Assembly (NCBI GenBank): GCA_025963715.1 | Contig: JAOQAG010000049.1 | Span: 1 to 64,000, forward strand | DNA length: 64,000 nt | Direction: 5' to 3' | Origin: Bacteroidota bacterium | GTDB taxonomy: Bacteria > Bacteroidota > Bacteroidia > 2-12-FULL-35-15 | Part shown: piece by piece, positions 5,779 to 48,877 of the stretch | How positions within the stretch are numbered: position 1 is the first letter of the stretch | Layout of the letters: each line of letters starts with the position of its first letter | The notes under the pieces: model-generated | What the model was told of the DNA's origin: nothing | What the model saw: only the letters and a program-made list of their open reading frames with translations | Database searches by the model: none | Translations under genes and position numbers: made by a program

Positions 5779-6966
5779 TTAATATATATCCTGCGCATCA
5801 ATCAGATCCGTTACTTCCTCCGCTGATGTTTTGTGCATTTTTTTAGGCGTTACAGGAATATTGCCGTTACCCGGATTTACATTGTTATCACCCGGATCAC
5901 TGGAATTATTCAGATCCATCAAATCGTACATCAGGCGGTTGTTGTAGAATGCTTTTGTTTTACCGAAACGTACCACCAAACCAACATTCACAAACAAAGT
6001 TGATTTGATATTTTCTTTATAATAACTGTTGTATTGCGATAAATTATCGCGGGAACGCGTTGGAAAAAGTGCGACATAATTACTGGTCGTTAATCCGCTG
6101 CTTACATAAAAACTAAAATGTTTTGAAGGCAATACATCCACGCGCGCACCCGATAAAAATTCGTAACGGCCGAAATATAATTTTTTGTCATCATCCGGAT
6201 TTCCTACGCGCAGCGAATCTACGTTGGCGAAGGAATACAATCCGCCCTGCGGCTTTGTGAATAAGCTCGCGCGCACGTATCTGCCCACAGGCACATTAAA
6301 CGTAATGCTGCGCGGGAACTGAATGCTGAAATTTATTTTGTCCAGCTTCCCTACACGGATCCCGATGTACGGCAATTGAAAACGGTTTCCCCACAAAAAC
6401 GAACGGGTAAATCCCAATCTGAAACTAAAATAATCGTTTACAGAACAATCGTATAAAACCGTGGTAGCAAGCCGGTACGTGCGGGTGTAGCGATAACCCA
6501 CATCCTTGGTTACAAATGGCGCCAGCTCTACAAAAAAGATGGATTTTTTTCCGTTGTTGTACATTCCGCGAAAGCCCAGCGCCGCTTTCGATAAGTAATG
6601 CCGGTCGATCCCGTCGAAATTAAGATTGATGCGGTTGTAGCTCCCCGTCAGTAAAAAATGAATGTTCGAAATTTTTGTACTGTCGGTGTTGTAAAAATCT
6701 TTTGTCACCACCGGAATATTAAAACCCAGCGTAACCTGGCTCAGCTGGTACGAATGCAGCTTTTTTGAAACCAAATTCACCGTATCCAGATCCCTTTTTC
6801 CGATCGAATAATAATCCAGGAAAATACTGTTGCTGAAATAATGTTTGGGAACTGTTACAATTTTTGTTTTCGCAACCGTGGTTGTATCGCTGTTAAATGC
6901 CGAAAGCTTTGTAACGGAAGTCACAAAGCCAATGGTAATAAAAATGAGTAACAGTCGCTTGTTCAC
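5779..6966 (-). CDS. Probable outer-membrane beta-barrel protein
   Basis: Unrecognised at family level; possibly a DUF6268-like barrel. With a GTG start at 6966 the protein has 395 residues and opens with NKRLLLIFITIGFVTSVTKLS, a good signal peptide. The body alternates polar and aromatic residues in short strands (for example YIGIRVGKLDKINFSIQFP), as in barrels. It ends with a Pro/Asn/Gly-rich linker and an acidic tail. An ATG at 7002 would overlap the upstream gene by 32 nt and place 12 polar residues before the signal, so I prefer the GTG, 4 nt after that gene's stop. It is the last gene of the sigma-factor operon and may be a regulated envelope component. Confidence 0.6.
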   Translation of the reverse strand: MNKRLLLIFITIGFVTSVTKLSAFNSDTTTVAKTKIVTVPKHYFSNSIFLDYYSIGKRDLDTVNLVSKKLHSYQLSQVTLGFNIPVVTKDFYNTDSTKISNIHFLLTGSYNRINLNFDGIDRHYLSKAALGFRGMYNNGKKSIFFVELAPFVTKDVGYRYTRTYRLATTVLYDCSVNDYFSFRLGFTRSFLWGNRFQLPYIGIRVGKLDKINFSIQFPRSITFNVPVGRYVRASLFTKPQGGLYSFANVDSLRVGNPDDDKKLYFGRYEFLSGARVDVLPSKHFSFYVSSGLTTSNYVALFPTRSRDNLSQYNSYYKENIKSTLFVNVGLVVRFGKTKAFYNNRLMYDLMDLNNSSDPGDNNVNPGNGNIPVTPKKMHKTSAEEVTDLIDAQDIY

Positions 6967-6970
6967 AGGA

Positions 6971-7411
6971 TCAGTTTTGTTTAATGTATTTGATAAGTTC
7001 AATTTTAAATTCTTCTTCCGCTCTTCTCAACGCCGCTACTTTTTTCACAGGCATTATTTTCTGGAACTTGTCATAATATTCTTTGTAGATCTCCACTTCT
7101 TTTTGTTTCATTAATAGTTCGGCATTCAGGTATGCCTGCGCTTCCTTGTCCGTTGCAAAATTATAGTTGGTGTTAGCGTTGTATTGCAGGCGGAATGTTT
7201 TCAAATTAGCATCCAGCTTATCGTTCATTTCGTTGTATAACGGCCAGAAAGCGCGTGATTCCTGATCTGTGAGCGCCACTTTTTTCGCAATAAAAGCAGT
7301 TCTCAGCGCGTCTATTTTGTCTTTTTTTGCATCTGATACCTGCGCCGATATGCCGGTGGCAAACAGCAAAAGCAGCAGCGAAAAAAAGAGTTGTTTGTAT
7401 GGGTGGTTCAT
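6971..7411 (-). CDS. Small exported helical protein of the ECF operon
   Basis: 146 residues with a clear signal peptide (hydrophobic stretch at about residues 8-22, cleavage near ISAQ). The mature part is almost entirely charged helix, with the pattern AFIAKKVALTDQESRAFWPLY followed by long Lys/Glu helices. This resembles the Spy/LTxxQ type of periplasmic helical sensors and chaperones often found beside ECF sigma factors, but I do not see a strict LTxxQ motif, so this is only a similarity of form. It lies 12 nt after the anti-sigma-like gene and 4 nt before the barrel gene, so all are likely one transcript. Confidence 0.7.
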   Translation of the reverse strand: MNHPYKQLFFSLLLLLFATGISAQVSDAKKDKIDALRTAFIAKKVALTDQESRAFWPLYNEMNDKLDANLKTFRLQYNANTNYNFATDKEAQAYLNAELLMKQKEVEIYKEYYDKFQKIMPVKKVAALRRAEEEFKIELIKYIKQN

Positions 7412-7423
7412 TACAAAAGCGTA

Positions 7424-8239
7424 TTATTTTTTATTTAGACTATCCATGTTTTTCAGTTGTACCGCTAACGAATCCGTTGCCAGCGAATCCGCCGAAAGCC
7501 TTTTATCCAGTGCATCCACATCCACCATGTCGTACAGGTCATCCGTATTCATTTCGCGGATTGTGTGATCGTTCAGCATTTCTCTTTTCTCCAAACAAGC
7601 CAGCGTTTTACAATCGCCGGAAACCGTTGGAAGAATTTCTTCTTTTTGTTTGCTATTGTTGTAAAAAACGCCTGCTCCAATGATCAGCATAACGCTGTAG
7701 GTAAAGGCAACACGCGGTTTTAATAAAAACGCAAACACGTTGCCGAATACAGATGTGCGTTGTTGCTGCGCACGATATTTTTCTTTTACACGATCGGCCA
7801 CCGTTTCAAAATAATGGGCGTTTACGGCAAAATTATTTTCTTTTTCCAATGCCGCCAGCGTGCTGTATTCGCTCAGCTCTTCGGTGATCTCCATACGTTT
7901 CAGCACTTTTTCATCCAGTGCAGCAAAGTAGTCCGCTTGCGCTTCTTCTTTCAATACCGGTTTCCCGATTTTTGCCAGCGCTTCAAATTCACTTAATTCA
8001 TGTTTGTATTCCAGCTCATTTTCCGCCGCTTTAAAATAATCCGCCGGGATCTCAAACTGCGGTTCTTTTTTGATGGAAGCCAACAACGCAAATTCTTCCA
8101 TTTCCGCTTCCAGTTCTATCCGCGCCATAATGCGGTCCGACAGTTTTTCAAAATAACCATCGGGCACTACAAAAGAATGCTGCTTACCCTTTGCAGGCAA
8201 ATCAAATTCTTCATCGTGATCGTTATTGTGCGGATTCAT
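7424..8239 (-). CDS. Repeat-containing single-pass membrane protein, probable anti-sigma factor
   Basis: 271 residues. Residues about 20-160 contain four related units, each with an aromatic pair in a PDGYFEKL / PADYFKAA / ADYFAALD / NAHYFETV frame followed by an acidic helix containing EFALLASI, EFEALAKI or EYSTLAAL. One transmembrane helix follows (VAFTYSVMLIIGAGVFY, about 177-193), then a periplasmic tail with two Cys and a run of Asp/Leu motifs. The gene starts with the ATG directly adjoining the sigma-factor TAA. Position, topology (cytoplasmic N-terminus, one TM) and operon order fit an anti-sigma factor, but no zinc-binding anti-sigma signature is present, so the role is inferred. Confidence 0.65.
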   Translation of the reverse strand: MNPHNNDHDEEFDLPAKGKQHSFVVPDGYFEKLSDRIMARIELEAEMEEFALLASIKKEPQFEIPADYFKAAENELEYKHELSEFEALAKIGKPVLKEEAQADYFAALDEKVLKRMEITEELSEYSTLAALEKENNFAVNAHYFETVADRVKEKYRAQQQRTSVFGNVFAFLLKPRVAFTYSVMLIIGAGVFYNNSKQKEEILPTVSGDCKTLACLEKREMLNDHTIREMNTDDLYDMVDVDALDKRLSADSLATDSLAVQLKNMDSLNKK

Positions 8240-8788
8240 TTAACTGTTTTTTAAATATTCTTCTACTTTTTTCGCTGCCAGATGATAAGAAGCTCTCAGT
8301 GCGCTTGCCGATGTTTCCAGGATCTCCGCCATTTCATCATACGGCGTTTCATCGTAATAACGCATATTAAATACAATGCGTTGTTTTTCCGGCAGCGTTA
8401 AGATCGCTTTCTGCAATTTCATCTGGATCTCATCTCCTTTAAAGTACGAATCGCTTTCCAGGTTTTTGCTCAGCTGATCTTCCAGCGTGTGGATCGATGT
8501 GAGGTTTGCCTGCTTTTTTTTCCTTAGAAAGCTGATCGATTCATTGGTAGCAATGCGGTACAGCCAGGTATAAAGCTTCGAATCTTCCTTGAACGTTGCC
8601 ATTCCCTTCCATGCCTTAATAAATGTATTCTGCAGCACATCATCCGTATCATCGTGATCAATAATTATTTTGCGGATGTGCCAGTACAAACGTTGCTGAT
8701 ACTTTTTGATCATAAAATGCACCGACATATTCCGCGATGGTTCATCGCGATACATTTCGAGTAATTCCTGATCCGTGTAATCCTGCAT
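8240..8788 (-). CDS. ECF (group 4) RNA polymerase sigma factor
   Basis: 182 residues. Region 2 includes HIRKIIIDHDDTDDVLQNTF and the -10-recognition helix with WLYRIATNESISFLR; region 4 has LPEKQRIVFNMRYYDETPYD followed by a helix-turn-helix with LRASYHLAAKKVEEYL. Length and the lack of regions 1 and 3 mark an extracytoplasmic-function sigma. It heads a four-gene minus-strand operon with an anti-sigma-like protein, a small exported protein and a barrel, so it probably directs an envelope response and its own operon. The promoter region upstream of 8788 is repeat-rich, and I see no clear -33/-7 pair there. Confidence 0.93.
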   Translation of the reverse strand: MQDYTDQELLEMYRDEPSRNMSVHFMIKKYQQRLYWHIRKIIIDHDDTDDVLQNTFIKAWKGMATFKEDSKLYTWLYRIATNESISFLRKKKQANLTSIHTLEDQLSKNLESDSYFKGDEIQMKLQKAILTLPEKQRIVFNMRYYDETPYDEMAEILETSASALRASYHLAAKKVEEYLKNS

Positions 8789-9381
8789 ACTTTTTTTGCT
8801 TTGACGCTGTGAAATTGGGAATGCTTAATGGGAAGCAACTTAAATTAAATTCAGGCTTAATACATTGATTATCAGTCTATTTTAACAACAAAAAACCAAC
8901 ACAGTACGTCATTGCGAGGGCTTTTCGCCCGAAGCAATCTCATTCCAGTTTATACGCTGCTGTGAGATTGCTTCGCTACCGCTCGCAATGACGTACTTAA
9001 TTATATTATTAGTTTAGCAAATAACACACGGCTATCTTTTTTGATCTTAACAATCATAATGATTTGCGTTCCTATCATACAACACACCCCTAACCCCTCT
9101 CAATGGCTCCTACGCTGAAGCTTCGGCGCAAGCGTAAGGGGAATTTGATCCTGCATGCACTTTAAATTAGTACAGAAAGTCATCAATTTATCCGTTCAGA
9201 TCCGTTTTATCGGTATCATCCGCGTTCCATCACACCCAGGTTTGTATCTGCAAACATTCATGAGATCCCGGGTCTGGCCCGGGATGACAGCTCCGAAGGA
9301 GGATCCCATTCAAATGAACATTTTACACAGCATCACACACAGATTGGTATATTCGTATCAATTTAGTATTTAGTAGATGCG
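8789..9381. repeat. Repeat-filled intergenic region
   Basis: No gene is seen in these ~590 bases. 8905-8995 is an R1 core: a long palindrome of GTCATTGCGAGGGC and GAAGCAATCTCA arms. 9083-9144 is a variant R3 element whose stem begins CACCCCTAACCCCTCTCAA and contains a second inner hairpin (CTTCGGCGCAAGCG). 9264-9288 is the CCCGGG hairpin also found inside R2 and at 62668-62694; its flank ACATTCATGAGATCC is shared with that second copy. About 9335-9380 is a word array that in minus-strand reading directly follows the stop of the desulfurase gene. Confidence 0.6.
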
Positions 9382-10524
9382 TTATTTCAGTTCATTTACG
9401 GCTGCACTCACCTTTTCAATCACATAATCAATCTCTTCCAGCGTCGTATATTTTCCCAAACTAAAGCGTACGGAGCTGTACGTATCCTCATCGCTCAAAC
9501 CCATTGCTTTTAATACATGCGACGGTTCTGCTATTGCCGAAGTGCAGGCAGAGCCCATTGCCACAGCAATGTTCGGGATCTTACTGATCAGCGATTCGGA
9601 GCGTGTGCCCGGAAAGGCAATGTTGGTGGTATTGAACAAACGATGCCTCGTACTTCCGTTGATGTAGATGCCAGGCAGGTCGCATAAAAATTGCTCCAGT
9701 TTGGTACGTAATTTCGAAATGCGTACGGCATCGTCCCACATTTCTGCCTGTGCAATTTCGCAGGCTTTTCCAAATCCCACAATCCCGGTTACGTTGAGTG
9801 TTCCGGAGCGCAGGCCGCGTTCATGTCCGCCGCCATCTATCTGTGGAAACAGCGTTACTCTCGGATTTTTCCGGCGTACATACAAGGCGCCAACACCTTT
9901 GGGTCCGTATAATTTATGTGCGCTCATACACATCAGGTCAATGTGTTCCTCCTCCACATCAATGTTCACTTTTCCGATCGCCTGTGTGGCATCGCACATA
10001 AAAATACTGTTATTGGCATGCGTCAGATCGGCAATTTCCCTGATCGGCTGGATCACGCCCGTTTCATTGTTGGCAAACATTACGGTCACTAAGATGGTTT
10101 GCGGCGTTAGCGCGTTTTTTAAATCCTGCAGGTCGATCAATCCTTCCCGGTTTACCGGTAAATAAGTGATTTCCGCACCTTTTTTCTCCAGCGCTTTGCA
10201 GGTATCCAGCACCGCTTTGTGTTCGGTTTGAACCGTAATAATGTGTTTTCCCCTGGTTTGGTAATTTTCCCAAACGCCTTTCAGCGCAAGGTTAATGGCT
10301 TCGGTGGCGCCCGATGTAAATACAAGTTCCTGGTCCAGACAATTGATGAGATTGGCAATTTGGAGCCGGGCTATTTTTACGGTATCATCGGCAATCCAGC
10401 CAAAAGCATGGGTTCGGCTGGCGGCATTTCCGAATTTTTCGGTAAAATACGGAAGCATCGTTTCCAACACCCGCGGATCAACCGGCGTGGTGGCATTATA
10501 ATCTAAATAAACGGGCGTTTTCAC
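9382..10524 (-). CDS. Cysteine desulfurase, IscS/NifS type (group I)
   Basis: PLP enzyme that removes sulfur from cysteine as an enzyme-bound persulfide for Fe-S clusters and thio-tRNA. It is 380 residues. The PLP lysine is Lys204 in SAHKLYGPKG, the cofactor-stacking histidine is His102 in TEHKAVLD, and the persulfide cysteine is Cys328 in MGSACTSA, within the long loop of group I enzymes. The start codon is GTG at 10522-10524. A -7-like TACTTTTA lies only 4 nt upstream, suggesting a leaderless transcript. It is divergent from sufS, 178 bp from the chosen sufS start. A role in tRNA thiolation beside the SufS pathway is plausible. Confidence 0.93.
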   Translation of the reverse strand: MKTPVYLDYNATTPVDPRVLETMLPYFTEKFGNAASRTHAFGWIADDTVKIARLQIANLINCLDQELVFTSGATEAINLALKGVWENYQTRGKHIITVQTEHKAVLDTCKALEKKGAEITYLPVNREGLIDLQDLKNALTPQTILVTVMFANNETGVIQPIREIADLTHANNSIFMCDATQAIGKVNIDVEEEHIDLMCMSAHKLYGPKGVGALYVRRKNPRVTLFPQIDGGGHERGLRSGTLNVTGIVGFGKACEIAQAEMWDDAVRISKLRTKLEQFLCDLPGIYINGSTRHRLFNTTNIAFPGTRSESLISKIPNIAVAMGSACTSAIAEPSHVLKAMGLSDEDTYSSVRFSLGKYTTLEEIDYVIEKVSAAVNELK

Positions 10525-10528
10525 ACCG

Positions 10529-10536
10529 TAAAAGTA
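10529..10536 (-). promoter_or_regulatory. -7 box of the desulfurase gene
   Basis: TACTTTTA (minus strand) is one mismatch from the Bacteroidota -7 consensus TAnnTTTG and ends 4 nt before the GTG start. Transcription would begin at or next to the start codon. Confidence 0.4.
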
Positions 10537-10644
10537 AGGATTTACCAGCGGATAAATGCCAATTTATAGTATAAATTCCATCATCGGTACACCGCTTAAA
10601 ACACTTTATTTGAAAGGAAAAAACCTTCTATTTAGAATTATTCT

Positions 10645-10652
10645 TAACTTTG
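10645..10652 (+). promoter_or_regulatory. -7 box of sufS
   Basis: TAACTTTG matches TAnnTTTG exactly. It would start transcription at about 10658, which makes the ATG at 10703 (leader of about 45 nt) more likely than upstream in-frame ATGs. No good TTTG is seen at the expected -33 spacing. Confidence 0.45.
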
Positions 10653-10702
10653 TAGCCGCTATTATGAATGAATCAATCCTCCTCAGCAAAACAGGTTTCG
10701 AC

Positions 10703-11911
10703 ATGGAGAAGATCCGTGCCGATTTTCCACTGCTTTCACGCAGTGTAAATGGTGCCGCTTTGGTGTATTTTGATAGTGGCGCAACGGCGCAAAAACCGCA
10801 ATCGGTAATTGATGCGCTCGATCATTATTACAAATACCAGAATGCAAACATTCACCGCGGCGTACACACACTTAGTCAGGATGCAACCACAGCTTATGAA
10901 GCAGCGCGTGCCACCATTCAAAAACATATAAATGCAGCACATGCACACGAAATTATTTTTACCCGCGGCACCACCGATTCCATCAATCTGGTAGCAAGTT
11001 CCTTCGGTAAAAAATTTATTTCCAAAGGCGATGAGATCATTGTTTCCGCCATGGAGCACCATTCCAATATTTTGCCATGGCAGCAGTTGTGTGAGGAAAA
11101 AGAAGCGATTCTGAAAGTGATCCCGATCAATGAGGCCGGTGAATTGCTGATGGATGAATATAAAAAACTGCTGAGCGGAAAAACGAAGATGGTTGCCATT
11201 ACGCACATTTCGAATACGCTGGGTACCATTAATCCTATTAACGAAATTATTAAACTGGCGCATGCCAAAAATATTCCGGTATTGGTGGATGGTGCGCAGG
11301 CAGTAGCGCATACTTCCGTAGATGTGCAGGCAATGGATGCCGATTTTTATGTGTTCAGCGGGCATAAATTATTCGGGCCAACCGGCGTAGGGATTTTATA
11401 CGGGAAAGAAAAATGGCTGAATGCCATGCCAACCTATCAGGTAGGCGGCGGAACGATCAAAACCGTAACATTTGAAAAAACAGAATATGCCGATCTGCCA
11501 CTAAAATTTGAAGCAGGCACGCCCCACATTGAAGGCGGAATAGGGCTTGCAGCAGCAATTGATTATGTGAATGCTATCGGATTAAAAAATATTGCAGCTT
11601 ACGAACATGAGTTATTATTATATGTAACGGCTGCCCTGGAAAAAATAGAAGGTGTAAAAATTATTGGTACAGCAAAAGAAAAAGCAAGCGTTATTTCGTT
11701 TGTGGTGGCCGGTTTACATCCGTTTGATGTGGGAACTATCCTGGATCAGCTGGGAATAGCCGTGCGTACCGGGCACCATTGCACGCAACCATTGATGAAT
11801 TTTTATTGCGTGCCGGGAACGATCCGTGTGTCGCTTGCATTTTACAATACAAAAGCGGAGATCGATTTATTTATAAAAGGGTTGGAACGCGCGATTAAAA
11901 TGCTGCGCTAG
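10703..11911 (+). CDS. sufS: Cysteine desulfurase SufS (group II)
   Basis: PLP enzyme that mobilises cysteine sulfur for the SUF Fe-S assembly pathway, passing it to SufE. From the ATG at 10703 it has 402 residues, the usual length, starting MEKIRADFPLL as SufS proteins do; the frame stays open upstream to 10556, but a -7 box at 10645 argues against those starts. The PLP lysine is Lys222 in SGHKLFGPTG, with His119/His120 in MEHHSN. The catalytic cysteine lies in RTGHHCTQP near the C-terminus, the short-loop form that needs SufE. sufE follows 122 nt downstream. sufB, sufC and sufD are not in the window. Confidence 0.93.
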   Translation: MEKIRADFPLLSRSVNGAALVYFDSGATAQKPQSVIDALDHYYKYQNANIHRGVHTLSQDATTAYEAARATIQKHINAAHAHEIIFTRGTTDSINLVASSFGKKFISKGDEIIVSAMEHHSNILPWQQLCEEKEAILKVIPINEAGELLMDEYKKLLSGKTKMVAITHISNTLGTINPINEIIKLAHAKNIPVLVDGAQAVAHTSVDVQAMDADFYVFSGHKLFGPTGVGILYGKEKWLNAMPTYQVGGGTIKTVTFEKTEYADLPLKFEAGTPHIEGGIGLAAAIDYVNAIGLKNIAAYEHELLLYVTAALEKIEGVKIIGTAKEKASVISFVVAGLHPFDVGTILDQLGIAVRTGHHCTQPLMNFYCVPGTIRVSLAFYNTKAEIDLFIKGLERAIKMLR

Positions 11912-11915
11912 TTTT

Positions 11916-12032
11916 TTTTCACCACTAAGGCACTAAGTGCACTAAGAAAGTAAAAAAAGGAGTAAAGTATAAAACAGTTATTATAAAAGTATTAAAATAG
12001 ACTAAATGTTCTTAGTGCCTTAGTGGTGAAAA
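11916..12032. repeat. 117-bp element with perfect 22-bp inverted ends between sufS and sufE
   Basis: The arms are 11916-11937 (TTTTCACCACTAAGGCACTA...) and 12011-12032, exact reverse complements. They surround an AT-rich spacer with AAGAAAGTAAAAAAAGG. Words of the same type (CTTAGTGCCTTAGTGGT) occur near 5690. The element separates sufS from sufE without an obvious U-tract terminator. Confidence 0.65.
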
Positions 12033-12033
12033 C

Positions 12034-12456
12034 ATGACAATCGAAGAAACAGAGAATGAGATCATAGAGGAGTTTGAGATCTTTGAGGATTGGATGGGGA
12101 AATACGAATACCTGATCGATCTTGGAAAATCGTTGCCGATGATCGATGAAAAAAATAAAACGGATGATAAGCTCATCAAAGGCTGTCAGAGTCGCGTATG
12201 GATGCATTCGGAATTGAAGGACGGCAAAATAATTTTTACTGCCGACAGTGACGCGATCATCACCAAAGGAATGGTAGCATTGATGATCCGGGTTTTATCC
12301 GGCCACACACCCGACGAGATCATTAATTCAAAGCTGGATTTTGTAGAAAAGATCGGCTTGACAAAACATCTGTCGCCAACGCGCAGCAACGGATTATTAA
12401 GCATGATCAAACAAATGAAATTGGATGCGTTTGCTTACAAACAGTTTAAAGTTTAA
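12034..12456 (+). CDS. sufE: SufE-type sulfur acceptor
   Basis: Accepts persulfide sulfur from SufS and enhances its activity. It is 140 residues, the normal size. The family motif GCQSRVW lies near residues 50-56, with the acceptor cysteine in that loop, and the C-terminal part has KHLSPTRSNGL. The ATG at 12034 comes 1 nt after the end of the repeat arm described above, so that element forms its whole leader. The last residues (QFKV and the stop) are encoded by an AGTTTAAAGTT word array, meaning the repeat has been built into the gene's end. sufS is upstream and a SufT/DUF59 gene downstream. Confidence 0.92.
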   Translation: MTIEETENEIIEEFEIFEDWMGKYEYLIDLGKSLPMIDEKNKTDDKLIKGCQSRVWMHSELKDGKIIFTADSDAIITKGMVALMIRVLSGHTPDEIINSKLDFVEKIGLTKHLSPTRSNGLLSMIKQMKLDAFAYKQFKV

Positions 12457-12593
12457 AGTTGGAAAGTTTAAAGTTTGCTGTACGCAGAAAAAAACCGGAT
12501 TAAATTATTAATGAAATAAAAAACACGTTGTGAAGTAGAATGTTTAAATGAACAACTTTGAACTTTAAACTTTCCAACTTTGAACTAAAAGGA
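12441..12593. repeat. Inverted word arrays between sufE and the DUF59 gene
   Basis: A sense array (12441-12487) of AGTTTAAAGTT words overlaps the sufE stop codon and ends TTTGCTGTACGCAG. About 60 nt later, 12553-12593 holds the reverse-complement array (AACTTTGAACTTTAAAC words) directly before the next start. In RNA the two would pair as a long imperfect stem. Confidence 0.6.
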
Positions 12594-12595
12594 AA

Positions 12596-12925
12596 ATGCC
12601 TGCAATTATAAACACACACAATACAGAACTTACCCAGCGTGTGATCGACACGATCAAAACCTGTTACGATCCGGAAATTCCGGTAGACATTTGGGAGCTG
12701 GGACTGATCTACGAAATAAACATTGACGAAGAGAACAACCTGTTGGTGAAAATGACATTGACATCGCCGAGCTGTCCGGTTGCTGAAACGCTCCCGCCCG
12801 AAGTAGAACAAAAATTACGCGATGTGGAAGGGATCCGCTCTGCTAAAATTGAGCTGACCTTTGAACCGTCCTGGGAAAAAGACATGATGAGTGAAGTGGC
12901 GCAGCTGGAATTAGGATTTATGTAA
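12596..12925 (+). CDS. DUF59/MIP18 Fe-S assembly protein (SufT-like)
   Basis: 109 residues, a single DUF59 (MIP18) domain. It has the characteristic DPEIPVDIWELGLIY motif near residues 24-38, and TSPSCPVAE with the conserved cysteine near residue 62. Family members such as SufT help mature or target Fe-S clusters. It lies after sufS and sufE in the order usual for Bacteroidota suf clusters. Cytosolic. Confidence 0.9.
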   Translation: MPAIINTHNTELTQRVIDTIKTCYDPEIPVDIWELGLIYEINIDEENNLLVKMTLTSPSCPVAETLPPEVEQKLRDVEGIRSAKIELTFEPSWEKDMMSEVAQLELGFM

Positions 12926-12959
12926 ATTAAGATCCAGGATGCAAGACACAAGAATCAAG

Positions 12960-13499
12960 ATGAAAACAATTGCAATGTTCATTGTTTTCGTTTCTTTTTT
13001 TGCATCGGCTTCAATTGCGCAGAAAAATCCCGCTTCGAAAATCGATTCCGTTTCGGAGCAGCTAAAAGTATATGTTTTTCTTTCCGAAACCTGTCCTATT
13101 TGCCAGAGCTATACGCTGACATTAAAAACACTTTCCGAAAAATACAGCTCCAAAAATGTAGTTTTCCTGCTTGTATTTCCTGATTATTATTCGGGTGCGG
13201 ACAGCGTAAATGCCTTCATCAAAAAATACAATTTGCCGTTTTTCCCGATCGTAAATTCGGCAAAAGAACTGGCAAAAGAATTCAACGCCACCATCACGCC
13301 CGAAGTATTTGTACAGGATGCAAAAGGAAAAATACTGTACAGCGGCCGTATCGATGATTCGTTTTATTCATTGGGGAAGCGCCGGACCGTAATTTCTTCC
13401 AACGACCTGGATGATGCATTGCAGGCGATCACCGGCAAACAAAAAGTAAAAAACGCCAGAACACAGGCAGTTGGCTGTATCATTTCATTGTCGGAATAA
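12960..13499 (+). CDS. Exported thioredoxin-like (redoxin) protein
   Basis: 179 residues from the ATG at 12960, which opens a clean signal peptide (hydrophobic IAMFIVFVSFFASASIA, cleavage near AQK). The mature part is a thioredoxin/AhpC-type fold with the redox pair in SETCPICQS and the cis-Pro region in ATITPEVFV. A further cysteine (VGCIISL) is near the C-terminus. Likely a periplasmic thiol oxidoreductase or haem/copper-handling redoxin. It is followed by an unknown exported protein and a haem/copper monooxygenase-like protein, and may serve their maturation. The trio separates the DUF59 gene from the DUF2480 gene. Confidence 0.8.
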   Translation: MKTIAMFIVFVSFFASASIAQKNPASKIDSVSEQLKVYVFLSETCPICQSYTLTLKTLSEKYSSKNVVFLLVFPDYYSGADSVNAFIKKYNLPFFPIVNSAKELAKEFNATITPEVFVQDAKGKILYSGRIDDSFYSLGKRRTVISSNDLDDALQAITGKQKVKNARTQAVGCIISLSE

Positions 13500-13567
13500 T
13501 TGTGTAGTTTTAATGTGGATAAAACAAACAGAGTATGGTCAGATGAAGAGCCGAATGTTGAAGAGCA

Positions 13568-13636
13568 GGCGTCACCCTGAGCCTGTCGAAGGGTTTGGGA
13601 AGTCAGCGCAGGTGTTTCGACAAGCTCAACATGACC
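13568..13636. repeat. REP-like hairpin
   Basis: GTCACCCTGAGCCTGTCGAA at 13568 and its near complement TTTCGACAAGCTCAACATGAC ending at about 13636 form an imperfect stem. A related fragment (TCATCCTGAGCGGAGCAGAA) is at 54343-54362. Confidence 0.6.
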
Positions 13637-13666
13637 ACGCACAGAGAACCGGATAAAACAAAAAAC

Positions 13667-14239
13667 ATGAACGTATTTAAAACCACCTGTTGCATTTTTT
13701 CACTTGCACTTATTTCCATTTTTTCCACTTCATTTACAAAAGGCGGCGATGACAAAGAGCTTGATCCCGAAACTTTTTATTCCATGGGAGAAGTAAAAGC
13801 CATGTCGGCGGATAGCATTCCGTACGGTACCTATGTGGCGCTGACAAAAGAAGTGATGGATAAAAAAAATAACATCATCACGATGAAGTCGATCACCATT
13901 GATCAGAAAGGTGAAACTGTGGAATACAATTACACGATGAACATCAACGATCCAAAATTTGTGGTGAAAGATGTGGACGGGAATTACAGCGGTGTAGGCA
14001 AGCTGCACGGTAAAAAATGGAAATGGACCAGCTGGGATTACAGCTTGTATTATACCAATCCGGCAGGCGGGCGAATGGAAGCATTCAATTACATTTCGCT
14101 GGTGGGATTGGTGGTGAACAAAGCGTTTTACGATGCCAATGGAAAAATGTTGGTGCGTTACAAAGAGCATCATAAATTTATTACGAAAGAAGAATTTGAG
14201 ATCTTGTATTTACAGGTATTAAAATGTTCAACAAAATAA
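13667..14239 (+). CDS. Hypothetical exported protein
   Basis: 190 residues from the ATG at 13667; upstream in-frame ATGs lie in the repeat and would put charged sequence before the signal peptide. The N-terminus (TCCIFSLALISIFSTSF) is a signal segment. The mature part is rich in beta-type, aromatic segments (GKKWKWTSWDYSLYY) and resembles no family that I can name. It sits between the redoxin and the monooxygenase-like gene with an 18-nt gap to the latter, so joint function in the envelope is likely but not shown. Confidence 0.7.
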   Translation: MNVFKTTCCIFSLALISIFSTSFTKGGDDKELDPETFYSMGEVKAMSADSIPYGTYVALTKEVMDKKNNIITMKSITIDQKGETVEYNYTMNINDPKFVVKDVDGNYSGVGKLHGKKWKWTSWDYSLYYTNPAGGRMEAFNYISLVGLVVNKAFYDANGKMLVRYKEHHKFITKEEFEILYLQVLKCSTK

Positions 14240-43187: not shown

Positions 43188-43231
43188 AAATAATAATCTA
43201 AATACTTTAGATTATTATTTTAGTACCTTTG
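43188..43231 (+). promoter_or_regulatory. Promoter with overlapping perfect palindrome (likely operator) of the metal locus
   Basis: AAATAATAATCTAAA at 43188-43202 and its exact reverse complement at 43206-43220 (TAC between) lie directly upstream of the -7 box TACCTTTG at 43224-43231. A repressor bound there would cover the promoter. The start codon is at 43238, so the transcript is nearly leaderless. The position fits a metal-responsive regulator such as a Fur/Zur or DtxR-type protein, but the sequence is not a textbook box for either. Confidence 0.6.
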
Positions 43232-43237
43232 TCTTCA

Positions 43238-43549
43238 ATGCAAAATATAAAAAAAAATTTTTCTGTATTCTTTTTGCTGCTATTTCTCTTTCCCCTGGTG
43301 GAGAAAGAAGTGCATAGCATTGAGCACAGAAAAGATTTTCATTGCAATTCTATAGACCAGCATTTTCACAAATTAGAGCATCACTGCCCCATTTGTGATT
43401 TTACGTTTACATCTTCAGAAAAACCCAAAAAAGCTGAATATTCCATTTTTATATCCAGCAACTTCTTTTTATATCTTCCTTTAATCAATTCTATTTATAG
43501 CATAAATAAAATTGATAATACCAGCCCACGGGCTCCTCCTATCGTTTAA
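43238..43549 (+). CDS. Small His/Cys-rich membrane protein (DUF2946-like)
   Basis: 103 residues from the ATG at 43238. An N-terminal hydrophobic helix (VFFLLLFLFPLV) is followed by a histidine cluster (His26, 30, 35, 42, 44, 48, 49) and HHCPICDF with Cys50 and Cys53, then a second hydrophobic segment and a C-terminal SPRAPP. The layout recalls DUF2946-type small proteins found with metal uptake or resistance genes and is matched by the gene at 47169. It probably binds a transition metal in the periplasm. It heads the locus, right behind a palindrome-covered promoter; the next gene is 234 nt away. Confidence 0.65.
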   Translation: MQNIKKNFSVFFLLLFLFPLVEKEVHSIEHRKDFHCNSIDQHFHKLEHHCPICDFTFTSSEKPKKAEYSIFISSNFFLYLPLINSIYSINKIDNTSPRAPPIV

Positions 43550-43783: not shown

Positions 43784-44275
43784 ATGAAAGGAAAAACACT
43801 CAAAAACTATTTTCTCATTCTTATTATTTCCTGTTTTAACCTTGGCTGCAATAATTCAGACACTCATGAAAAATTAAAAGCCGCACATCAAAAAATGGAA
43901 GAAGAGCATGTTAAAATGGAAGCGGATTATGCAAGGCTCAAGTTAGAACACGAGCAACTTGAAAAAGAAAATGAGGCAGATCATGATACAAGCAATGATT
44001 CAGCGTATGTGAATATGGAAAACAGGCACAGGGCACTGATAGAAAAACTGGATATACTGGTGGAAAGACACAAAGATTTAATTAAAAACCACGAGGCGCT
44101 TGAAGAAAGCCATGAAAGAGGTGAAAAGACAGAAGAGCAGGTCAACGAAGAACATCAGGACATGCAGGAAGATCATGATTTAATGAAAGCCGAACATGAA
44201 CAAATTATTATTGATTATAATAAAATGCAAGCAGACCATGATAAACTTCTTAAAGCCAACCAGCATAAAGGATAA
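43784..44275 (+). CDS. Lipoprotein coiled coil with heptad-phased histidines
   Basis: 163 residues. A lipoprotein signal ends in FNLGC (Cys22). The rest is almost pure charged helix without Pro. Fourteen histidines are present, and twelve fall in two exact seven-residue registers: 28, 35, 42, 56 (with Tyr49 filling one slot) and 82, 96, 103, 110, 124, 131, 138, 152 (Tyr145 filling one). Such a stripe of His along one face of a coiled coil suggests metal binding or a pH-sensitive zipper. No family is recognised. The next gene overlaps its end, and the TonB receptor follows, so it probably hands metal to or from the receptor in the periplasm. Confidence 0.75.
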   Translation: MKGKTLKNYFLILIISCFNLGCNNSDTHEKLKAAHQKMEEEHVKMEADYARLKLEHEQLEKENEADHDTSNDSAYVNMENRHRALIEKLDILVERHKDLIKNHEALEESHERGEKTEEQVNEEHQDMQEDHDLMKAEHEQIIIDYNKMQADHDKLLKANQHKG

Positions 44276-44828
44276 GAAACATTGGGGAGTGCTGGCATAT
44301 AGAAAAAAAAGAGCTGATAAACAGCTTTTAGGCCGGAAGAAAGATCAAAAGCTTTTTATAATTTTTTGGATTGTATTAATAACAATTGCTTTCTGGAACT
44401 ATTACCTGATCGGTAGCCGTAAGACATTCCAACAGCAGTTTAAAGAAAGCAAAACTACATTGGTGCAAATGGATTTAATATTGGAATCAGAACATATCCG
44501 GCTGAATACGCAACATTATCAGTGGCTGGTAGCATGCAGAACACGGAATATTACAAATGACATCCGGCATAACAATCTGCAAGAGAATTATGCGAAAGTG
44601 TTAAATGAGCATGCAGCGCTTATTACGAGGTATAAAAAAATGTTAGAAAGGTATTTCGTTTTAGAAATGATGTATCAGGATAAGGACAGGGACGAACTAA
44701 CTATAAAAGAGAGGTATGAGGTTTTACTAAATGATTTTGATAAAATAAAATACGAGAATGATTCCATAAGGTCATTTAATAAATCAATGAAAACAAATTA
44801 CCTGGCCCTTTTAAAAGCAATAAAATGA
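44238..44828 (+). CDS. Membrane-anchored coiled-coil protein of the metal locus
   Basis: About 196 residues if started at the ATG at 44238. Other options are ATG 44196 (80-nt overlap with the lipoprotein gene) or GTG 44289, which has GGGGA directly before it. A basic segment precedes one transmembrane helix (LFIIFWIVLITIAFWNYYLIG) and then a long helical region. It shows the same heptad phasing as the lipoprotein: Tyr, His, Tyr, Tyr and Tyr follow each other at seven-residue steps in NYAKVLNEH...RYKKMLERY...MMY. The two proteins are probably related and may form a coiled coil across the periplasm. Its stop overlaps the receptor start as ATGA. Confidence 0.65.
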   Translation: MINFLKPTSIKDKKHWGVLAYRKKRADKQLLGRKKDQKLFIIFWIVLITIAFWNYYLIGSRKTFQQQFKESKTTLVQMDLILESEHIRLNTQHYQWLVACRTRNITNDIRHNNLQENYAKVLNEHAALITRYKKMLERYFVLEMMYQDKDRDELTIKERYEVLLNDFDKIKYENDSIRSFNKSMKTNYLALLKAIK

Positions 44829-47176
44829 AACAACTGATAAGTATATTTATTTTTCTTAACGGACTGCATGCTTATGCGCAGTGCGATCTTGTGCTTTCCG
44901 GTAAAGTAATATCGGCGGCTGACCATGAAGTACTTTCATTCTCTACAATTTATATTAAAGAATTAAAAACAGGGGCGACCGCCAACGAAAAGGGCGTTTT
45001 TACTATTGATAAAATCTGCCCCGGGAAATATACTGTAGAGATCAGCCAATTAGGCCATACAACGTTGGATACGCTTATTGAGATCAATAAAAATGCTTTC
45101 TGCACTTTTAATCTACCTGTTAATGCCACCGAGTTAAAAGTAACTACTGTGGAAGCACTGGCAATAAAAAAGCAGGAAATACAAACGCTGCAAAAAGAAG
45201 AAATAAGCGGTGTTGAAATGGATAAAACAAGAGGATTGAGCCTGGGAGAATCTTTAAAATCAATAACAGGGGTAAACAGCATCCAAACCGGGCCGTCTAT
45301 TTCCAAACCAATGATCCACGGGATGTATGGCAACCGGATATTGATCATGAATAATGGCGTAAGGCTCGAAAGCCAGACCTGGGGTTCTGATCACGCTCCT
45401 GAGATCGATCCTTTTATTGCCACAAAGTTTAGTGTGATCAAAGGAGCGGCAAGCATACGTTACGGCACAAATGCAATTGCAGGGGTAGTATTGGTAGAGC
45501 CAAAAGAAATGCCTGCAACCAAATGCCTGAATGGGGAAGTAAATTTAGTTGGAACCAGTAATGGAAGATCGGGAACTGCATCTGGTTTTCTGGAAGGAGC
45601 TTTTGATAAAAAACTTTCCGGTTTGTCCTGGCGTGTGCAGGGTACAATTAAAGAAGGAGGTAATTACAGCACGCCTACTTATTATTTAAAAAATACCGCA
45701 ACAAAGGAAAATAATTATTCAGCGGCATTATCGTACAATAAAAAGAATTTTGGAGTAGATCTTTTTTACAGCAGATTTAATACGATGCTTGGAATTTACA
45801 CGGGGTCACATATCGGTAACCTCAATGATCTTTACCTTGCATTTAATAGTCCGGAGCCGATTGTAAAATCTGAATTTTCGTATAAAATAGAACGCGGCTA
45901 CCAAACGGTAGATCACCAGCTGATCAAGGCGAAAGCATTTTATAATTTTAAAAATGCGGGCAAGCTGGAATATACGTTTGCACGGCAGGAAAATAAGCGT
46001 GCTGAATACGGAGAAGATCTTTCCTACAATCAAAGCATTGTCGATCAGAATATTCCGGATGCCTATTTTCAGCTGATCACACACACTTCCGAGTTGGTGT
46101 GGGAACACAAACCTGTAAAGCACATTACCGGAAGTATAGGTGCCAGCTATATTACGCAGGGCAATGTATTCCGCGGACTGGATTACAGAGCCCTGATCCC
46201 AAACTATCGTACCTATGGTGGTGGTTTATTTATTTTAGAAAAGTGGAATAAAAGAAAATTAACAATCGAAGCCGGCGCACGTTATGATTATGAATGGATG
46301 AGAACGTACCTCCTTGATTTTACAACGTTAAAATCAAGATCGGATGATTACAGCTGGGAAAATTACAGCGGCACTGTGGGGGCTATTTACCAGTTTAACA
46401 AAAACCTGTCATTAAATGTTTCCGGTGGTATCGGCTGGCGGCCTCCTGCGCCGATAGAGCTATTTGCATTAGGCATTCACCAAAGTGCTGCATCGTTTGA
46501 AATAGGAGATACTTCATTACGGGCGGAACGTTCCTATAATTCCCAGGCATACCTGAATTACACAGGCAATAAGTTCAGCTTCGAGATTGGCGGTTATTTT
46601 AATGTAATTGATAATTTTATTTATTTAAAGCCTTTACCTGATCCTGTTACTACTATTGGCGGCGTATTTCCGGCTTATAAATACACACAGGCAAATGTAT
46701 ATTATTCGGGATTGGATGCAAACCTGAGCCTGAAGCTTACAAAAAACATCAGCCTTACTTCCAAAACAACCATTGTTTATGCGTATAACAGAAGCCAGCA
46801 CGAATATTTAATTTATGTTCCGGCTAACCGGTTTGATAATGGAATTTCCTTTTCAAAGGACAGTATCTGGAAATTTAAACAGGCTTATCTCAATTTTTCT
46901 GTATTAACGGTAGCCACACAAAACCATGTTCCGCCTCACAGCGATTATGTTCCGCCACCAAAAGGATATACGCTTCTCAATGCAGCAATCGGGTTTTCTA
47001 TTCCTGTAAAACAGCAGCTGATTAGTGTGAGCCTGGGAGTGACCAATATCATGAATGTTGTTTACCGCGATTATCTGAACAGGTTCAGGTATTATACAAA
47101 TGATCTTGGACGCAATTTTACAGTACGATTAAAAATTCCATTTAGTGTTTTCCACACGGAGAAAAAAGATGAGTAA
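44825..47176 (+). CDS. TonB-dependent outer-membrane receptor, probable metal (zinc/copper) type
   Basis: 783 residues. Signal peptide to about residue 20, then a carboxypeptidase-regulatory-like domain (CDLVLSGKVISAADHEVL, about 20-100), a plug and a 22-strand-type barrel. The plug has TWGSDHAPEID (186 onward), followed by VIKGAASIRYGTNAIAGVV; this DHA-P/ID pattern resembles ZnuD-like zinc receptors rather than siderophore or SusC receptors. The ATG overlaps the stop of the upstream coiled-coil gene (ATGA), so they are translationally coupled. A His/Cys small protein and a lipoprotein follow. Substrate assignment is inference. Confidence 0.88.
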   Translation: MKQLISIFIFLNGLHAYAQCDLVLSGKVISAADHEVLSFSTIYIKELKTGATANEKGVFTIDKICPGKYTVEISQLGHTTLDTLIEINKNAFCTFNLPVNATELKVTTVEALAIKKQEIQTLQKEEISGVEMDKTRGLSLGESLKSITGVNSIQTGPSISKPMIHGMYGNRILIMNNGVRLESQTWGSDHAPEIDPFIATKFSVIKGAASIRYGTNAIAGVVLVEPKEMPATKCLNGEVNLVGTSNGRSGTASGFLEGAFDKKLSGLSWRVQGTIKEGGNYSTPTYYLKNTATKENNYSAALSYNKKNFGVDLFYSRFNTMLGIYTGSHIGNLNDLYLAFNSPEPIVKSEFSYKIERGYQTVDHQLIKAKAFYNFKNAGKLEYTFARQENKRAEYGEDLSYNQSIVDQNIPDAYFQLITHTSELVWEHKPVKHITGSIGASYITQGNVFRGLDYRALIPNYRTYGGGLFILEKWNKRKLTIEAGARYDYEWMRTYLLDFTTLKSRSDDYSWENYSGTVGAIYQFNKNLSLNVSGGIGWRPPAPIELFALGIHQSAASFEIGDTSLRAERSYNSQAYLNYTGNKFSFEIGGYFNVIDNFIYLKPLPDPVTTIGGVFPAYKYTQANVYYSGLDANLSLKLTKNISLTSKTTIVYAYNRSQHEYLIYVPANRFDNGISFSKDSIWKFKQAYLNFSVLTVATQNHVPPHSDYVPPPKGYTLLNAAIGFSIPVKQQLISVSLGVTNIMNVVYRDYLNRFRYYTNDLGRNFTVRLKIPFSVFHTEKKDE

Positions 47177-47516
47177 AAATAAATTACATATCATCTGTTG
47201 TTATTTTCTGCTGATTGTATTTTCAGCAGGGCAATACGTTGTATTCTATCACCACCACAAAACCGAAAGCGTTTGTAATTTCATTTCGGAAAATAAGCAC
47301 CATGCTGCTAAATATCATTTGCACAGCGAAACGCTCAATTGCATGCTGTGTGAATTCATATTGCATCAGGTGTTTATGTTTGGTCGTTCTTTTTCAGAAT
47401 GGATCTGCTTTGCTGTTTTATTTGCATGGCTGTATTGCATCCCCGAAGCCATTTACAGAAGGAGTTTACACTTAAGATCAAGAGCACCACCTGTTTTTTT
47501 AATTATTCAACAATAA
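47169..47516 (+). CDS. Second small His/Cys membrane protein (DUF2946-like)
   Basis: 115 residues from the ATG at 47169, overlapping the receptor gene by 8 nt. It has an N-terminal hydrophobic helix (IICCYFLLIVFSAGQYVVFY), a His cluster (HHH at 28-30, KHHAAKYHLH at 43-52), LNCMLCEF with Cys58 and Cys61, a second helix and a C-terminal SRAPP. The order of elements is the same as in the 43238 protein although sequence identity is low, so they are probably diverged paralogues placed on either side of the receptor. Confidence 0.65.
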   Translation: MSKNKLHIICCYFLLIVFSAGQYVVFYHHHKTESVCNFISENKHHAAKYHLHSETLNCMLCEFILHQVFMFGRSFSEWICFAVLFAWLYCIPEAIYRRSLHLRSRAPPVFLIIQQ

Positions 47517-47546: not shown

Positions 47547-48128
47547 ATGAAAAAGATAACAAACTGGCTCTTGTGTATAGCCGCAATAAGCACCCTTATG
47601 CTGGGTGCCTGTAAAAAAGAAGAAATAGCAGTTGCCCCCCCTGTACCGGGCAATGAGTTTATGACAACAGTTAAAGTCCGCCTGCAAAGCACCACAAATC
47701 CGAACGATACCATTTGGGCTGCATGGAGGGATTTGACCCCGGATGATACAAATCCACCTGATACAAGCATGGCGGTCATCAACATAAAAAAGAATACAAC
47801 CTATACTGCTACGGTTCATTTTTATGACGAAACAAAAACACCGGTGGTAGACATTACTCCGGAAATACAGGAAAGAGCAAATTACCATACATACTGGTTC
47901 TTTCAAACAGGTGGAATTATTGGTCATTTAACTACCACCGCTACCGACCATGATACAAATAGCCCCCCTATATTTATTGGTTTGGCAAATAATTTTGTAA
48001 CGGATGGAACCGTATGTAGTGGCCGCCTGGAAGGAGTTTTAAGACACCAGCCGAACAGTAAAAACGGAACCTTTGCTCCCGGCTCAACAGATTCTGACGT
48101 ATTTTTTACTTTAAATATCATTCCATAA
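47547..48128 (+). CDS. Lipoprotein of the TonB-partner 'type 1 periplasmic binding fold' kind
   Basis: 193 residues. The lipobox is LMLGACKK (Cys about 22). The mature domain alternates strands and contains YHTYWFFQTGGIIGHLT, ATDHDTNSPPIFIGL and GVLRHQPNSKNG, a pattern that I associate with small lipoproteins annotated as a type 1 periplasmic binding fold and found next to TonB receptors in Bacteroidota. It probably sits at the outer membrane and helps the receptor capture substrate. It starts 30 nt after the upstream gene. Confidence 0.65.
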   Translation: MKKITNWLLCIAAISTLMLGACKKEEIAVAPPVPGNEFMTTVKVRLQSTTNPNDTIWAAWRDLTPDDTNPPDTSMAVINIKKNTTYTATVHFYDETKTPVVDITPEIQERANYHTYWFFQTGGIIGHLTTTATDHDTNSPPIFIGLANNFVTDGTVCSGRLEGVLRHQPNSKNGTFAPGSTDSDVFFTLNIIP

Positions 48129-48145
48129 AACATATACTATATAAC

Positions 48146-48877
48146 ATGAAAAAAATATTAATATTAACGGTAGTAAGTGTATGCACATACACCATTTCTA
48201 TTGCACAGGATAATTCAACTCCGGCTAAAGCTCCAAGTTTTATTGGAGTTACAGTAGGGTATGCGCATGCAGGCGGAAATTTTACAAAAACGGATTATGA
48301 AAACGATAAAGCAGGTTTTGCAAACCCCGGAGGATTAAATTTAGGTATTGAAGGAGCATACTTTTTCCACAAGAATATTGGAATTGGTGGTGTATTTTCT
48401 AATAGCTCTTTTTATACAAAAGGAAAACAATCACTGGCCGATGGATATAAGGAGGCGTTTGATGTGGATAGCACAACGGTTACTGATAAAGGAAAGTATT
48501 CTACCTATAATTTCCTGATCGGGCCTTATTTTTCTTTTCCAATGAAAAAATTCACAATTGATACCCGGCTTGTTGTTGGTTATGTGAGCGCAAAAACTCC
48601 TGAATTAAGAGTTGACCTCGAAGATCAGGCGAATGCGACATTCTATCAAAGATCGGCAAAGGCAGGTACTTTTGGTTTTCAGGTAGGTGCGGGTATTCGC
48701 TACTCTATTGTTAAAAATCTATGTGTAAAGTTAAACGTGGATTATTTTTATAGCAAGCCTGATTTCAAGATCACCAATGACAACCGCGCAAATAATGCCG
48801 GAAGATTAATTGATGATTACAAGCAGCCAATTGCAGGAGTATTACTTAATTTTGGTATTGCTTATCAGTTAAATTAA
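48146..48877 (+). CDS. Outer-membrane beta-barrel (porin-like) protein
   Basis: 243 residues. Signal peptide to about residue 20 (YTISIAQD). The mature part shows typical 8-10-strand OmpA/OMP_b-brl alternation (FIGVTVGYAHAGGNF ... IGIGGVFSNSSFY ... FQVGAGIRYSIVKNLCVKLNVDYFYSKP) and ends in an aromatic/aliphatic strand GIAYQLN. It is the last gene of the metal locus, 17 nt after the lipoprotein gene. Its role (passive uptake, structural) is unknown. Confidence 0.75.
   Translation: MKKILILTVVSVCTYTISIAQDNSTPAKAPSFIGVTVGYAHAGGNFTKTDYENDKAGFANPGGLNLGIEGAYFFHKNIGIGGVFSNSSFYTKGKQSLADGYKEAFDVDSTTVTDKGKYSTYNFLIGPYFSFPMKKFTIDTRLVVGYVSAKTPELRVDLEDQANATFYQRSAKAGTFGFQVGAGIRYSIVKNLCVKLNVDYFYSKPDFKITNDNRANNAGRLIDDYKQPIAGVLLNFGIAYQLN

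Follow-up and report, generated by a model that had tools for sequence, protein, structure and literature searches.

The heptad histidine stripe of p1, a lipoprotein encoded in the window (the whole stretch of 64,000 nucleotides analyzed here), was confirmed, and we consider it somewhat probable that p1 is an envelope zinc-binding protein with stacked tri-histidine sites in a three-helix bundle, encoded beside a zinc receptor. The p1 gene apparently shares an operon with this ZnuD-like receptor. The genes of this part of the window are as follows.

43238–43549, + strand: small His-rich protein, secreted or in the membrane, that carries a CPICDF motif; conserved beside the receptor, with counterparts in loci L011, L012, L040, L041 and L117
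43784–44275, + strand: p1, lipoprotein with the lipobox FNLGC, heptad His and a predicted three-helix bundle
44238–44828, + strand: p2, a p1 paralogue predicted to form the same bundle after an N-terminal membrane-anchor helix; a start at 44196 is possible
44825–47176, + strand: ZnuD-like TonB-dependent receptor, whose start overlaps the p2 stop (ATGA)
47166–47516, + strand: another small His-rich protein, encoded downstream of the receptor and containing HHHK and CMLCEF; counterparts in L011, L040 and L041
47547–48128, + strand: receptor-associated lipoprotein of the LRHQP...G motif family; relatives adjoin the receptor in nine loci (L011, L012, L040, L041, L043, L052, L117, L118 and L134)
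48146–48877, + strand: outer-membrane beta-barrel protein (PF13505 at 3.8e-9); counterparts in L011, L012, L040 and L117

As the first-pass annotation had stated, 12 of the 14 histidines of p1 fall exactly into two heptad registers, the first comprising residues 28, 35, 42 and 56 and the second residues 82, 96, 103, 110, 124, 131, 138 and 152, with only His67 and His161 out of register. It had also described Tyr in two slots of these registers; Tyr does fill such slots, at positions 49, 75 and 145. Six i+7 His–His pairs were observed, where shuffles that preserve composition gave 1.2 (P about 2e-4 to 3e-4), and when His and Tyr were pooled, there were 11 pairs, compared with 1.8 expected from shuffles (P < 1e-5). 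These composition-keeping shuffles rule out a composition artefact as the source of the stripe. The two registers correspond to separate helices, with a predicted loop in between.

We defined a family from an alignment (A3) by a signal peptide, lipobox or transmembrane anchor, three helical segments, and H-x-x-[M/L/I] heptads in shared columns. All of these features are found in p1, and p2 has the anchor and the helices, with the His largely swapped for Tyr. A profile search of a phylum-wide sample gave matches in 20 of 395 species (about 5%; E ≤ 1e-5), one of which was a repeat artefact, and searches at the class and family levels recovered further members. Matches in genome G211 were set aside, as they represent several frames of short DNA repeats (L034, 1–440; L038, 1087–1871) that read as HSALITRHSSL... 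and mimic heptad His.

Across 24 members, the columns that hold His are distinct from those that hold hydrophobic residues, and the His–His spacing was 7 in 207 cases, 14 in 156 and 21 in 108, with any other distance up to 20 counted at most 15 times. The residue at H+3 was Met in 106 cases, Leu in 82 and Ile in 39, and Met was the commonest residue both at this position and at H–4 (118 cases). In the heptad assignment, His occupies the core 'a' position and Met, Leu or Ile the 'd' position, several 'd' columns having Leu or Ile instead of Met. Columns 56, 82, 89 and 96 contain His in at least 90% of the family, and the His columns are kept while overall identity to p1 drops to 14–31%; the first-pass annotation had made its proposal depend on such conservation among homologues, and the stripe proved to be conserved. 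No family in Pfam or NCBIfam covers the heptad-His group, for which these databases gave scattered weak coiled-coil matches only, and the score against the Lpp/OprI-type zipper model NF040598 was 16.5 bits, below the cut-off of 43. No published description was found in the open-access literature, and as far as that literature shows, the heptad-His proteins would constitute an undescribed family, as judged from their sequences.

AlphaFold2 with the family alignment predicted three helices in p1 (25–65, 73–111 and 117–162; pLDDT 88, pTM 0.77) and the same bundle in p2, following a long anchor-bearing N-terminal helix (pLDDT 87, pTM 0.64). Instead of long zippers, AlphaFold2 gives three-helix bundles within one chain. 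Because the models are single-chain bundles, a ladder would consist of layers of three histidines (His3) inside one molecule. In a fold search of the PDB, no match had an E-value under 0.001, and the matches were all generic helical bundles.

With loop midpoints at 69 and 114, residues were assigned to layers from the helix boundaries and conservation, not from measured distances. The 'a' layers inferred in this way, each followed by the number of members with complete His3 out of 28, were {28,110,117} (0), {35,103,124} (13), {42,96,131} (9), {49,89,138} (18), {56,82,145} (24) and {63,75,152} (12). The total of 76 was higher than that of 99.5% of family-wide re-pairings, whose mean was 60.5, and in each of the three helices His frequency climbs toward one shared end; within-layer covariation of His was weak (0.30 versus 0.17). 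The predicted models suggest that the 'a' histidines are probably stacked as three-histidine layers within the three-helix bundle. In p1, His3 was present in {35,103,124} and {42,96,131} only, {56,82,145} being HHY, and p2 has no His3 layer, compared with three in the single counterpart in genome G028. The two copies in the window have thereby lost some of the layers conserved in the family, mostly through replacement by Tyr.

Several members have Tyr, Phe or Leu in place of a layer His. Such replacements, together with the low-complexity E/K/D/H/M sequence and the persistence of the predicted p2 fold without the His, would be consistent with a structural spacer whose core merely tolerates His and whose stripe results from repeat growth and composition. 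We regard this explanation as unlikely, given that the same columns retain His at the low identities to p1 mentioned above and that His is commonest toward one shared end of the three helices.

In the cited open-access literature, core His3 layers, stacked or single, were found in designed proteins only. The designed three-stranded coil (GRW-H)3 forms a His3 site from 'a' positions that binds Co(II), and designed core His3 sites serve as carbonic anhydrase (zinc) mimics (PMC13262294); a metal-binding His3 site composed of 'a' histidines is therefore feasible. The likeness to p1 lies in one 'a' His per helix, contributed by three helices and meeting in the core; however, (GRW-H)3 is designed, trimeric and has one site, whereas the p1 family is natural, consists of one chain and has up to five predicted layers. 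Similarly, buried His form two or three layers of three in DpHF/pRO-2 proteins, single-chain versions included, and our profile search gave a weak match to DpHF18, although these are designed proteins in which His participates in hydrogen-bond networks with Asn, and they are not metal proteins (PMC11286511). When acidified, designed one-chain bundles that contain networks of three buried His disassemble sharply (PMC11286511), which raises the alternative that the heptad-His proteins are pH switches, in which buried His layers would keep the bundle together at neutral pH and let it open on protonation, with no role for metal. The occurrence of some members outside metal clusters is compatible with this alternative, but we consider it very unlikely in view of the recurrent zinc neighborhood described below; moreover, in the designs His is paired with Asn networks, none of which were seen in the heptad-His family.

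The start of p2 is more likely ATG 44238 than 44196, and its start region overlaps the end of p1. Numbered on the 210-aa open reading frame from 44196, its stripe is Y132-H139-Y146-Y153-Y160, followed by Y174, in agreement with the Tyr-His-Tyr-Tyr-Tyr at seven-residue steps reported earlier. Six i+7 pairs of His and Tyr were counted, compared with 1.0 in shuffles (P = 3e-5); for His alone, the pairs were not significant against shuffles (P = 0.09). The earlier proposal that the two proteins are related was borne out by BLASTP (E = 6e-8 across 154 aa), by a single profile that recovers both, and by the same predicted fold. A relative of p2 within the same genus exhibited 35% identity.

In a phylogenetic tree, p2 groups with the genes of G028, G086 and G581, and p1 is placed in the other main clade (98/100), with long branches. 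Because the tree puts them in different clades, p1 and p2 look like old paralogues, and a recent tandem duplication was rejected, provisionally in view of the long branches. The earlier suggestion that the two proteins may pair with each other found no support, since they look like old paralogues and most His are gone from p2, and no support was obtained for gating by metal or pH either. Since p2 groups with those three genes and lacks His3 layers, it looks from the sequences like the syntenic copy with its ligands lost, p1 being the His-bearing sister. A pattern that echoes p1 and p2 was seen in the f74 group, where a heptad-His lipoprotein is followed by a His-poor lipoprotein with a weak match to the same profile. 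This gene order was found in L056, L058, L064, L068 and L069, and the pattern with a weakly matching second lipoprotein was noted at L056, 10231–10938; L058, 8930–9532; L068, 10373–11017; and L069, 10381–11058.

The best PDB match of the receptor was ZnuD (4rdr; E = 2.6e-21, or 2.3e-41 with a receptor-family profile). Against the ZnuD model NF038289 it scored 138 bits, below the cut-off of 950, and we accordingly call it ZnuD-like rather than ZnuD. The zinc ligands of ZnuD are Asp99, His100, Glu340 and His499 (PMC4557270). Of these, Asp99, His100 and His499 align with identical residues of the receptor, in SDHA and LGIH motifs, and Glu340 falls outside the alignment, with the invariant E394 as a candidate equivalent. 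The receptor is flanked by Cys-x-x-Cys His-rich proteins (43238–43549 and 47166–47516) in the window as well as in L011, L040 and L041; they could be assigned to no family. The lipoprotein at 47547–48128 had no match in Pfam or NCBIfam and is conserved beside the receptor in nearly every locus examined.

In four families, heptad genes were found in zinc or metal clusters, with genes for a ZnuD-like receptor, ZigA, CDF or a Fur-family regulator. The heptad gene lies at most a few kb from the receptor in G000, G028, G086, G581, G726 and G364, and the G581 copy overlaps the gene of a CDF transporter; relatives of the receptor adjoin genes for a ZigA-type zinc chaperone and ZIP in L040 and L043. 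As a test of this context, the surroundings of four additional members were read after these had been detected solely by profile, and all four (G777, G807, G821 and G826) were located in metal clusters. In G777, the row consists of ZigA, the heptad gene, MerC, CDF and the receptor; in G807 and G821, the heptad gene adjoins a Fur-family regulator, a putative Zur, with ZigA also adjoining in G821; and in G826, it adjoins two ZigA-type genes. A universal zinc link was nevertheless rejected because many members occur outside metal clusters, namely those in Flavobacteriaceae, the f74 group, G300, G329, G372, G707 and a Persicobacter plasmid, where the copy adjoins a ChrA-like gene. In the stretches examined, the loci unlinked to metal clusters had no match to ZigA, Fur or the receptor.

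A Fur-like box, GCAAC-N3-GTTGC, was found upstream of the genes for the receptor, ZigA and ZIP in L043 (span 5877–13678) and flanking the heptad gene in L132 (8300–9533) and L133 (7736–12167), with two to three copies per locus, compared with 0.02 expected. The sequence marks this box as a candidate operator of a Bacteroidota zinc regulator. In the window, the box is absent and its degenerate form is not enriched. A perfect palindrome with 12-bp arms, ATAATAATCTAAATACTTTAGATTATTAT, is located at 43190–43218, immediately upstream of the gene that opens the unit (ATG 43238); it is a possible operator, unlike the box of the G807/G821 and L043 loci.

The frequent Met at H+3 and H–4 might also indicate a sponge for soft metals (Cu+ or Ag+), in which His-x-x-Met on one helix face protects the envelope. 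In this respect the family resembles SilE, a small periplasmic protein that carries HxxM motifs on a helix face, binds several metals per chain and becomes more helical when metal is bound (PMC5008109). However, SilE is disordered without metal and its motifs are irregular, whereas the p1 family has strict heptads and a confident predicted fold without metal; the SilE and PcoE families were absent from the Pfam and NCBIfam matches, a comparison with family models only. The neighbors, namely the ZnuD-like receptor, ZigA, ZIP, CDF and the Fur-family regulator, also argue against a soft-metal role, as do the Leu or Ile residues that take the place of Met in several 'd' columns, and no copper or silver export genes were seen in the loci examined; such a role therefore seems improbable to us. 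A further alternative is the same ladder with cobalt or nickel in place of zinc. The CDF neighbors scored best against the model of the Co/Ni exporter DmeF, at 234 and 212 bits for a cut-off of 250, and there are NicO genes nearby, but the receptor and the GTPase neighbor are closest to zinc proteins (ZnuD and ZigA, the latter at 637 bits, above the cut-off of 600), and the ZIP gene carries the same GCAAC-N3-GTTGC box. We give cobalt or nickel only a very small probability.

From the computed heptads, conservation, predicted fold, gene order and recurring zinc neighborhood, we infer metal binding, zinc as the metal, and the direction of its flow. According to this zinc-ladder proposal, p1 would be lipid-anchored in the envelope and would bind metal, most likely zinc. 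Its mature part would form a one-chain three-helix bundle in which the core 'a' histidines come together in His3 layers, spaced by one heptad (about 10 Å) and with Met/Leu/Ile layers between them, and several Zn2+ ions could be bound in a row along the core. Zinc from the neighboring ZnuD-like TonB receptor would be buffered or handed on by p1, and p2, a membrane-anchored paralogue that keeps the bundle with most ligands gone, may be a partner or a relaxed copy. In gene setting, likely metal and compartment, p1 resembles ZnuD, ZepA and ZinT (PMC4557270, PMC10957091); a local H-X2-9-H-F/Y-H motif has been described for ZepA, but none of the three has been described as a heptad-His bundle. More specifically, a one-chain bundle whose core stacks as many as five Zn(His)3 sites might act as a zinc store or conduit for the receptor, a suggestion that we make tentatively and with some doubt. 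As for the metal ladder of the first-pass annotation, the gene context points to zinc, and the arrangement has changed to predicted His3 layers within one chain; with this change, the idea is a hypothesis well motivated by conservation, the predicted fold and context.

In guts, soils and lakes, Bacteroidota are a dominant phylum, and to our knowledge, envelope zinc handling after TonB-dependent import is poorly known in this phylum. The heptad-His family, whose sequence code is simple (H-x-x-M/L heptads), is a candidate buffer or carrier of zinc. Should zinc bind at the His3 layers, the family would represent an evolved counterpart of designers' metal coiled coils, with natural variants predicted to have from zero to five complete layers. 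Because their genes repeatedly adjoin zinc-uptake genes, the heptad-His proteins may be natural ladders for capturing zinc.
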